DNA of 33,537 nt from Pirellula staleyi DSM 6068 (lineage in GTDB: Bacteria; Planctomycetota; Planctomycetia; Pirellulales; Pirellulaceae), in contig CAMDKL010000060.1 of NCBI GenBank assembly GCA_945900945.1, forward strand, positions 1 to 33,537, read 5' to 3'. Numbering within the stretch: the stretch's first letter is position 1; every line of letters starts with the position of its first letter. This document shows positions 19,707 through 22,067 of this stretch, in pieces. Both the position numbers and the translations under genes were made by a program. Below the pieces are notes generated by a model that was given only the letters and a program-made list of their open reading frames with translations, was not told where the DNA came from and made no database searches.

Positions 19707-19822
19707 GGGGTTGCGTCTACGAATTAGATGAAACCCCGTTGGGGTTTGGTCTCATGCGATCACGCGAGATTTCCAGGGTGCGCTGCGCGACCCTGGGCTA
19801 TGCGATATTACGCCGTTGGCGT
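19707..19822 (+). repeat. Left three-hairpin REP-like element flanking the RAYT gene
   Basis: In plus orientation the element reads: GGGGTT, CGAATT, GATG, then hairpin 1 AAACCCC-GTT-GGGGTTT (19731-19747), hairpin 2 CCAGGGT...ACCCTGG (19773-19796, with GCG/CGC extension), GATAT, then hairpin 3 TTACGCC-GTT-GGCGTAA (19808-19824). A second copy of hairpin 3 (19832-19844) and a 13-bp direct repeat ATGTGGCATCGTT (19852, 19875) follow. The same blocks occur in inverted orientation to the right of the transposase gene. Confidence 0.85.
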
Positions 19823-20019
19823 AAGAAAACTACGCCGTTGGCGTTCGAAACATGTGGCATCGTTAGCGAATACAATGTGGCATCGTTGTCTTAACGATTG
19901 CCGTGCTTTTGGCGTATGGAATGGAAGCCCGAAATGAAATATCGTTCAAAAACGTATCACACCACTTCATTCGAATTAATCATCCTTTGTCATAGATCCC
20001 GCATAGGAGGAACATTCAC

Positions 20020-20475
20020 GTGGCGCAGTCGCTGGCCCAGGTATATTTGCATCTTGTGTTCTCTACCAAAGAACGATGGCCGTTCTTCCAAGACAAAGCT
20101 GTAGTTCAGGAAACACATTGCTATCTTGGTGGGACATGTACGAAACTTGGTTGTCCTGTTATTCGCGTCGGTGGCGTGGCTGATCATGTCCAAATCCTGT
20201 TCCGTTTCGGACGAACCATTTCGATTGCGGACTTGATGCAGGAATTAAAACGTGAATCGTCGAAGTAGGTCAAGAACAATGGTGCCGCCTTCAAAAACTT
20301 TCATTGGCAAAGTGGGTATGGTGCTTTCTCCATCAGTCCGAGCCATGTCGATCTTTTGGTTGCATACATTGAGAAGCAAGAGGAACATCATCAATCGGAA
20401 TCATTTCAGGATGAATTTCGAAGGCTCATGAGACGTTACGAAATTGAATGGGATGAACGATACATTTGGGATTGA
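20020..20475 (+). pseudogene. REP-associated tyrosine transposase (RAYT, IS200-like TnpA), nonsense-mutated
   Basis: From GTG at 20020, with a perfect AGGAGG 7 bp upstream, the translation MAQSLAQVYLHLVFSTKERW is the classic RAYT/Y1-transposase start; GGVADHVQIL and the C-terminal YIEKQEEHH with the expected catalytic Tyr follow. An in-frame TAG at 20266-20268 interrupts it after residue 82; the frame continues without further stops to TGA at 20473-20475 (KNNGAAFKNFHWQSGYGAFS...). Members I know have Trp at that place (SSKW), so one G-to-A change explains the stop. The metal-binding HxH is HVQ here, a second lesion. These enzymes are thought to process REP palindromes, and this one lies between two inverted REP-like elements. 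Confidence 0.85.
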
Positions 20476-20549
20476 ATGCGTGATCTATCAATGGATTGCA
20501 TGAATTCGGCGAAAACTGTTTTAACGGCCAGTAGGGCCGTATGCGATTC

Positions 20550-20663
20550 ACCCCAACGGGGTCATATCTCAGAGCCCAGGATCGCAAAGCGCACCCTGGG
20601 GAAAAGTCGCCACGCAGTTCGATTACCCCAACGGGGTTGCATCCGCGAATTCGGTCAAACCCC
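20550..20663 (-). repeat. Right three-hairpin REP-like element, inverted relative to the left copy
   Basis: Read on the minus strand it repeats the left element: GGGGTT (rc of 20658-20663), CGAATT (20648-20653), GATG (20640-20643), hairpin 1 ACCCC-GTT-GGGGT (20625-20637), hairpin 2 CCCAGGGTGCGCT...CCTGGG (20575-20600), GATAT, hairpin 3 ACCCC-GTT-GGGGT (20550-20562). Hairpin centres are 43.5 and 31.5 bp apart, against 45.5 and 31.5 in the left copy; total length is 114 against 116 bp. An additional imperfect palindrome (AACCC/GGGTT) overlaps its outer end. Confidence 0.85.
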
Positions 20664-20672
20664 GTTTGGGTT

Positions 20673-20942: not shown

Positions 20943-22067
20943 ATGGCCGCTTCAACCAGCAAGAGCAAGAAAAAATCCGACAAAGGCCCACCGGCTGAGC
21001 CGATCACCGGTCTTGAGAGTATCTACAAACGAGAGCCTAGCCTCAGGACCACTCTCCAACAAATCGAAAAGCAATTCGGCGAAGGCTCCATTATGCCTTT
21101 GGGCGGAGAAGCACAGCTCAAAATTGAAGGCATTCCAACGGGCTCGCTTTCTCTCGATATGGCTCTTGGTGGAGTCGGAGTTCCTCGTGGCAGAATCATC
21201 GAGATCTTTGGCCCAGAATCCAGCGGCAAAACGACTATCGCATTGCATATTTGCGCTCAAGCTCAGAAGGCCGGCGGCATCGCGGCTATCATCGACGCTG
21301 AACACGCATTCGACCCAAGCTGGGGAAAGAAGCTCGGCGTTGAATTGGACACGTTATTAGTTAGCCAACCCAGCAGCGGCGAAGAAGCCATGCAAATCAC
21401 CGAGATGCTAATCAAGAGCAATGCGGTTGACGTTATCGTCATCGACTCGGTGGCCGCATTGGTTCCAAGACAGGAACTTGAGGGTGAGATCGGTGATTCG
21501 CACATCGGACTACAAGCTCGTTTGATGAGCCAGTCCATGCGTAAACTCACTGGCGTTATCGCCAAGAGCAAAACTTGCGTAATCTTTATTAATCAGATTC
21601 GTGAAAAAATAGGAGGTATGTCGTACGGTTCCCCGGAAACGACCCCTGGCGGTCGCGCTTTGAAATTCTATTCGTCGTGCAGAATCGATGTCCGCAGGAT
21701 TGGACAGCTCAAGGATGGCGAAATGATTGTCGGTCAGCGAGTCAAAACCAAGATCGTAAAGAATAAGGTCGCACCACCATTCCGTATTGCGGAATTCGAT
21801 ATGATGCACACCTGTGGCATCAGTTTCGAAGGTGACCTACTCGATCTTGGCACAGCTCACAAGATCGTTAACCGTAGCGGTGCTTGGTTCAAGTATGGCG
21901 ATACCTACATTGGCCAAGGAAAGGAAAAGGCACGCAACTACCTAATGGAAAACAAAGACGTTGCAAACGCCATACGCGATGCCATCATTGCGTGCGGTGG
22001 CTACGCAGGTCCAGAAGGCAAACCTGAAGCCAACGAAGTTGAACAAGAAGTCGCTGCCGATTCCTAG
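20943..22067 (+). CDS. recA: Recombinase RecA (374 aa)
   Basis: RecA, the DNA-dependent ATPase for homologous recombination and SOS induction. Walker [10 protein letters not shown] is at 90-98, Walker [12 protein letters not shown] at 163-173, and the DNA-binding loop 2 region [24 protein letters not shown] (read in parts) at 217-240. The start is ATG at 20943, with AAAGGA upstream; an in-frame TTG at 20868 would add 25 residues with no match to the family. A 20-residue Lys/Ser/Pro-rich N-terminal extension precedes the conserved core. It converges with the histidine kinase gene across a hairpin. Confidence 0.98.

Follow-up and report, generated by a model that had tools for sequence, protein, structure and literature searches.

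Among the systems closest to the locus studied here, TnpA_REP uses a GTAG motif at the foot of the hairpin. Known members of the IS200/IS605 family are described as free of terminal inverted repeats in the part of PMC2817692 cited here. For the TIRYT/TIRtron type, the cited sections of PMC3733652 (Di Nocera 2013) report Y1 transposases with long inverted repeats, some of which are doubly palindromic, and name R. baltica as rich in TIRYT-type genes and repeats. The portions of PMC6006769 (Quentin 2018) used for this work place 26 TIRYT examples in subclasses 2.1, 2.2 and 2.5, and they characterize subclass 1.2 by the motifs DH[IV]H, WQ and YIKNQKEHH, a length of about 150 amino acids and a low copy number. 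In these portions, subclass 1.2 is listed with 'no' REP and without IS properties; its members generally lack the typical IS200 terminal structures and come mostly from Cyanobacteria and Bacteroidetes. A further relevant entry is the Rfam family RF01687 (Acido-Lenti-1), which is filed as sRNA and which Table 1 of Weinberg 2010, the part of that paper considered here, marks with 'y' (probably) for RNA. According to the cited passages of PMC13298647 (June 2026), the function of Acido-Lenti-1 is little known and a regulatory RNA has been suggested. A limited search of the literature, which also covered subclass 1.2 and relied on parts of the articles (among them PMC2864571, PMC10059132 and PMC8266576), retrieved no link between RF01687 and a transposase.

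Here, we analyzed a stretch of 33,537 nucleotides from Pirellula staleyi DSM 6068, referred to as the window, in which an initial annotation had described inverted multi-hairpin elements on both sides of a RAYT transposase remnant. The locus is quite probably a decayed copy of a transposon-like system, in which a subclass-1.2 Y1 HUH transposase is combined with inverted three-hairpin units and accompanied by non-autonomous doublets.

The window locus and its transposase

For comparison, we used 80 loci (the named loci), which were chosen by protein alone as the best 80 of at least 584 confirmed candidates, ranked by their likeness to a query built from planctomycete proteins. The hairpin units were detected with a covariance model (R1), which was trained on 45 units including both units of the window; 14 of the 80 named loci gave training units and 66 did not. 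The following features were assigned to the window locus:

19733-19822, minus strand: left three-hairpin unit (R1 score 51.5 bits, the unit being a training member of R1; alignment and folding)
19810-19822, minus strand: hairpin B of the left unit
19798-19809, minus strand: 12-nt spacer of the left unit, ending TAG
about 19773-19797, minus strand: hairpin A of the left unit
19733-19745, minus strand: hairpin C of the left unit
19832-19844, no strand assigned: extra hairpin ACGCC-GTT-GGCGT, tentatively the start of a decayed inner unit
20020-20475, plus strand: transposase pseudogene (Y1_Tnp, subclass-1.2 signature; PF01797 with E 1.6e-22, NF033573 with 56.5 bits)
20550-20637, plus strand: right three-hairpin unit (R1 score 52.8 bits, also a training member of R1)
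20550-20562, plus strand: hairpin B of the right unit
20563-20574, plus strand: spacer of the right unit, foot GAG
20575-20600, plus strand: hairpin A of the right unit
20625-20637, plus strand: hairpin C of the right unit
20659-20671, no strand assigned: extra weak hairpin outside the right hairpin C, which may correspond to the C' hairpin of B-A-C-C' copies in the relative genome G141
20943-22067, plus strand: recA, the downstream neighbor, outside the element

The window gene carries a TAG at codon 83, and its HUH motif reads DHVQ, so that the second histidine is replaced by glutamine. Because of these two defects, the gene as written is a pseudogene. The WQ motif and the tyrosine motif (YIEKQEEHH) are present. 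When the protein was scanned against NCBIfam with X at the stop, the IS200 model NF033573 was the sole match (56.5 bits at a cut-off of 55), and the RAYT model REP_Tyr_transpos gave no match at E values up to 0.001. Judged by its Y---Q--HH signature, which is not that of RAYTs, the window protein belongs to subclass 1.2 of TnpA_Y1. The named relatives share the signature DH[IV]H, WQ and Y..Q..HH (alignment A2); Y..Q..HH was found in 78 of 80 proteins, DH[IVAF]H in 75 and WQ in all 80. Solved structures retrieved by sequence comprised eight distinct sequences, which are all listed as transposases and include ISHp608. At the cut-offs used, a genome yielded at most six gene matches, which were divergent among themselves, and many near-identical gene copies per genome, as in IS200/IS605, were not found at these cut-offs.

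The two elements of the window are complementary to each other (84% over 50 nt; 75% over 99 nt, E 5e-12), and both are matched by R1, which confirms the inverted arrangement. The limits originally proposed (19707-19822 and 20550-20663) do capture two inverted elements but are better drawn as in the feature list, since the outer blocks reaching 19707 and 20663 sit beyond hairpin C; on the right side they merge into the weak hairpin at 20659-20671. The small loops, originally described as GTT, read AAC on the strand that has AG at the foot of hairpin A. Both units point with hairpin B toward the gene and with hairpin C outward, which is opposite to the commonest order among the relatives. An R1 scan with default filters revealed no third unit within the window up to E 10. 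A weak R1 signal beside the gene (19832-19898, 10.1 bits) is consistent with a decayed inner unit.

The initial annotation expected a 115-bp consensus that is repeated in the genome. As DNA, the window element has no third genome copy (the best matches were 17-21 nt long at E 0.8 or worse), but the structure model retrieved at least 30 further units. By eye, the window's own CCCAGGGT unit type was found in the window only, among 30 of the 32 own-genome matches. The transposase gene of this locus is no longer functional, and its subtype of unit appears not to have spread. With the gene broken, the units reversed and the subtype not found elsewhere in the genome, the proposed reading of this copy as a whole mobile unit is not supported.

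Among 26 stretches of the same genus, units upstream of recA were detected only in the own genome and in G015. In the latter (L255, G015:C130), a different subclass-1.2 gene with its own units lies directly upstream of recA. The window gene is closer to other relatives than to this gene, and the recA-side genes of the genus may reflect either ancient residence or repeated insertion.

The three-hairpin unit and the loci that carry it

The unit is composed of hairpin B, 12 nt that usually end in AG, hairpin A, about 22-25 nt and hairpin C. Left and right flanks of the named loci were compared with each other and with 210 mismatched flank pairs, and ten of the 80 loci with a flank below 300 nt were left out of this comparison and of the triloop counts. 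Here, we found that the inverted similarity exceeded the 99th percentile of the mismatched pairs in 50 of 70 loci, and 29 loci also showed direct similarity. Hairpins with triloops occurred 3.36 times per locus versus 0.38 times in shuffles, and 59 of 70 loci contained at least one. Strict triple units were present in 53 of 80 loci versus none in three shuffled sets; for B-A pairs alone, the corresponding values were 74 of 80 loci and about seven in a shuffled set. Triple units were also found in 25 of 33 loci of relatives.

The spacing analysis and the later unit analyses involved 130 loci (L010, L034, L035, L048 and L136 were not placed, and the duplicates L135, L137 and L147 were excluded); L029 and L050 look like a single record under two names and were both retained. 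Of 227 units, 134 had 17 nt and 47 had 18 nt between the B loop and the beginning of hairpin A. When B was searched from hairpin A only (n = 146), perfect pairing was observed in 57% of cases at 17 nt and in 12% at 18 nt, and at each of 52 other distances in at most 3%. In an alignment of 45 units (A3), both-side changes were seen at 18 of 18 pairs; this count calls for caution, since only units with perfect stems had been selected. At the foot of hairpin A, TAG and CAG predominate, and the preceding base varies.

With R1, a unit was detected within 600 nt of the gene in all 80 subclass-1.2 loci, as the initial annotation had anticipated for other genes of the clade. It can be seen from the distribution of the 249 matches that 227 fall in the 91 kb that are no more than 600 nt away from a gene and 22 in the other 263 kb, which corresponds to a 30 times higher density near the gene. 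Units were present on both sides of the gene in 66 of 76 loci, and the commonest order (within 130 nt) was B-A-C-gene-C'-A'-B' (50 of 80 loci). Judged by record titles, the loci come from Planctomycetota (17), Verrucomicrobiota/Lentisphaerae (21), Bacteroidota (22), Acidobacteriota (9), 'Deltaproteobacteria'/Desulfovibrionales (3), Calditrichota/Ignavibacteria (2), Sumerlaeota (2) and Armatimonadota (2), and two loci are unassigned. With units beside subclass-1.2 genes of so many phyla, the earlier assumption of a planctomycete-specific system is not supported.

In 59 control loci, none of which carries the Y..Q..HH motif, R1 matched none of the 30 RAYT loci and one of the 29 loci with IS200 and other Y1 genes (24.8 bits). 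The latter match corresponds to one of 20 IS200 loci, many of which are copies from two genomes. A looser hairpin detector found B-A pairs in 14 of 20 IS200 and 10 of 30 RAYT loci; its counts of strict triple units were one of 20 and two of 30, respectively. Since this detector also fires in controls, our claim of specificity rests on R1. Together with the IS200 model as only match at E 0.001 and the subclass-1.2 motif, the absence of R1 matches from the 30 RAYT loci speaks against the original naming of the window gene as RAYT. The presence of R1 units as such bears on the published description of subclass 1.2 and not on the protein assignment.

To explore the association between hairpins and transposase, we compared units within and across loci. 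In 43 of 67 loci, the left unit was matched best by the right unit of the same locus. A transposase tree was built for 97 of the 130 loci (AG-footed unit within 400 nt, at most one stop; window gene excluded). On this tree, the type of the A arm changed 19 times (63 of the 97 rows were used, as arm types with fewer than four rows were not counted) versus 31 times after shuffling within phyla, and 0 of 300 shuffles reached the observed value. The eighth base of the A arm, scored in 96 rows, changed 14 times versus a mean of 29 in within-phylum shuffles, and again 0 of 300 reached it. In a group of 24 transposases, 23 units have T at this base versus 13 of 73 elsewhere. By title or kinship, this group comprises 18 Planctomycetota, 5 Verrucomicrobiota and 1 Desulfovibrionales; its support is 90, and its branch stays open in a quick tree. 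A Mantel test gave 0.31 (p 0.001), but since this test is confounded by host descent, the label shuffle within phyla was used instead. Taken together, hairpin A type tracks the transposase tree within phyla.

Dispersed copies and the Rfam family RF01687

R1 units were found in 17 of 19 genomes, and all counts per genome are lower bounds (150 candidates were scored in each). The own genome contains at least 32 matches on 17 contigs, the two of the window included, and the relative genome G141 at least 45. Four genomes in which no gene was detected at the cut-offs used nevertheless carry units (G124 at least 19, G157 at least 66, G036 at least 5, G059 at least 35). Two others with no detected gene (G041, G052) had no R1 unit among the candidates scored. 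When 30 of the 32 own-genome matches were viewed by eye, most units belonged either to the CCATGGGC type, which is also that of the transposase on contig C285, or to the CCCAGCCC type. Units similar to the latter occur at the transposases L034 and L035 of two sister genomes (G022 and G024), which looks as though the cognate transposase of the own genome had been lost or not assembled. A further Y1 gene of the clade in the own genome (L007, G000:C17) is accompanied by inverted hairpin arrays of a related kind, in which the large hairpin has a four-base loop and the foot reads TATG.

Gene-less copies, which the initial annotation had suggested as orphans, do occur. They are scattered in the genomes as inverted doublets, in which B-A-C and C'-A'-B' are separated by often about 30 nt. 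G141 contains one gene-carrying copy of the order B-A-C-gene-C'-A'-B', ten doublets, whose spacers measure 15-33 nt, and several B-A-C-C' copies. Here, dispersed gene-less copies share their ends with a gene-carrying copy, which is a trait of MITEs and REPINs. In one G141 copy (L222), 224 nt lie between the units, and a single frame gives the start of a subclass-1.2 transposase PQSFASLYVHLIFSTKNRESW and its end FQEEFVAFLTKHNVEFDPRYVFD followed by a stop, with the catalytic middle missing. Only both gene ends remain between the units, as would be expected if a gene-carrying copy were reduced to a doublet by internal deletion.

Adjacent units were analyzed in the fetched dispersed and relative loci, for which all 133 R1 matches were used and nine overlapping pairs were set aside. 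Non-overlapping neighbors face each other C-to-C in 32 of 44 pairs, and all 8 pairs of the own genome do so. An A precedes hairpin B in 99 of 111 outer flanks (matches below 70 nt excluded), and in a subset of 98 of the 133 matches the corresponding values were 24 of 26 pairs and 86 of 92 flanks. In the named loci, A precedes B in only 77 of 194 flanks and thus, the exact element end is not universal. A doublet lies just upstream of ruvC in G141, and at E 0.01 no unit was detected at this position in any of seven relatives. When the two flanks of one G141 copy were joined and used as a query for an empty site, half matches only were obtained, and no target duplication was seen. Several G141 copies (L213-L215, L226-L229) share flanks with another repeat (GGGTGCC...GTGGGC), apparently as a compound repeat, and because of these shared flanks some copying may involve larger blocks. 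At L223 (G141:300809-302826), a stretch that by eye resembles a protein gene is bordered by a B-A-C unit on one side and an end similar to that of a doublet on the other; it may be a passenger or a mere neighbor.

The 46 positions of RF01687 correspond to hairpins A and B and the 12 nt between them, on the opposite strand and with hairpin C not covered. In the named loci, RF01687 gave 16 matches in 11 of 80 loci, and all 16 coincide with an R1 unit. The family also matches unit copies in the own genome and in G141. At E 0.001 it was found in 40 of 149 genomes of the phylum (33 over the cut-off), with 17 matches in the own genome, and in 0 of 14 control genomes. When 20 loci were fetched via RF01687, one of them from the own genome, R1 detected a unit at that spot in every case, and subclass-1.2 motifs were nearby in three. 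The window's own units did not match RF01687 up to E 1.

Possible mechanism and comparison with known systems

The architecture of the units, their specificity as measured by R1, their dispersal and their cognate association with the transposase were shown computationally. We consider it likely, with somewhat less assurance than for the origin of the window locus, that subclass 1.2 constitutes a Y1 HUH mobile system of its own, which would be the third kind next to IS200/IS605 and REP/RAYT. It would be characterized by three-hairpin ends, MITE-like doublets and a distribution over at least eight phyla, and Acido-Lenti-1 would be a DNA end rather than an RNA gene. By analogy with TnpA_REP and its GTAG, the transposase may bind a folded single strand with (T/C)AG at the 5' foot of hairpin A, and hairpin B, which is held at fixed spacing, may be recognized together with this foot. 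IS200/IS605 and REP biology suggest that cleavage would take place near the outer edge of B and that the transposase would move the segment from B to B'. Following the same analogies and the structure of copy L222, gene-less doublets would be non-autonomous copies that arose by internal deletion.

Alternatively, the system may be domesticated in a REPtron-like manner, with a stationary gene that only spreads or maintains the repeats and with no gene-carrying transposon. This scenario is a serious but less probable option. It would account for the few gene copies per genome versus many repeats, and it agrees with the description of subclass 1.2 as low copy without IS properties in the cited part of PMC6006769. 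However, the doublets and the gene-carrying copy of G141 share their ends, and L222, with a gene lacking its middle between such ends, fits a gene-carrying element that is losing its inside.

It appears improbable that the hairpins act as RNA, with Acido-Lenti-1 as a true small RNA or RNA regulator that lies beside these transposases by chance. The sRNA filing of RF01687 and the 'y' in the cited table of Weinberg 2010 point in this direction, and so does the wobble pattern. On the (T/C)AG strand, G-T pairs outnumber A-C pairs in named-locus units by 134 to 16 (41 versus 3 in higher-scoring and 93 versus 13 in lower-scoring units), as folded RNA would show with G-U. These counts favor the (T/C)AG strand but cannot separate DNA from RNA, as folded DNA tolerates G-T too, and they are partly biased by the model priors; moreover, the excess is on the strand opposite to that of Rfam. 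With inverted units at both gene ends, a single transcript would hold one end per sense, and the C-to-C inversion of 32 of 44 adjacent pairs and the restriction of R1 matches largely to one transposase subclass also argue against an RNA function.

A view of the hairpins as ordinary terminators of transcription, or as palindromes that arose by chance in GC-rich intergenic DNA, could invoke their short GC-rich sequences and the B-A pairs that the loose detector reports beside control genes, but it was rejected as highly improbable in view of the triloop excess over shuffles, the strict triple units (53 of 80 loci versus none in three shuffled sets), the fixed 17-nt geometry and the R1 controls (0 of 30 and 1 of 29).

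If subclass-1.2 transposases and three-hairpin units do form a mobile system, a DNA partner would be supplied for a widespread transposase subclass that has been described as having none. The same reading might also explain what the Rfam family published in 2010 represents, and Acido-Lenti-1 annotations may mark mobile DNA.

With RF01687, the unit has the A-12 nt-B part in common, and the differences concern the sRNA filing, the opposite strand and the lack of hairpin C. Long inverted repeats are shared with the TIRYT/TIRtron type, whereas the proteins belong to subclasses 2.1, 2.2 and 2.5 there (cited parts of PMC3733652 and PMC6006769) and to subclass 1.2 here. The nearest protein models and the solved structures come from IS200/IS605, but the known members of this family lack terminal inverted repeats in the cited part of PMC2817692, and R1 matched one of 20 IS200 loci. 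The REP/RAYT system resembles ours in its Y1 HUH transposase, inverted palindromic repeats by the gene, dispersed copies, inverted doublets and, possibly, a tag at the hairpin foot. This foot is GTAG in REPs and mostly TAG or CAG here, with a variable preceding base; in addition, the present system involves another protein subclass, three hairpins per unit at fixed spacing and a gene copy that shares its ends with the doublets. With subclass 1.2 as published in the cited portions of PMC6006769, the protein signature, the length of about 150 amino acids and the low copy number are common to both. In contrast to the published description, which lists no REP and mostly Cyanobacteria and Bacteroidetes, the genes studied here have three-hairpin flanks and come from many phyla, with no Cyanobacteria among the best 80 of at least 584 candidates.
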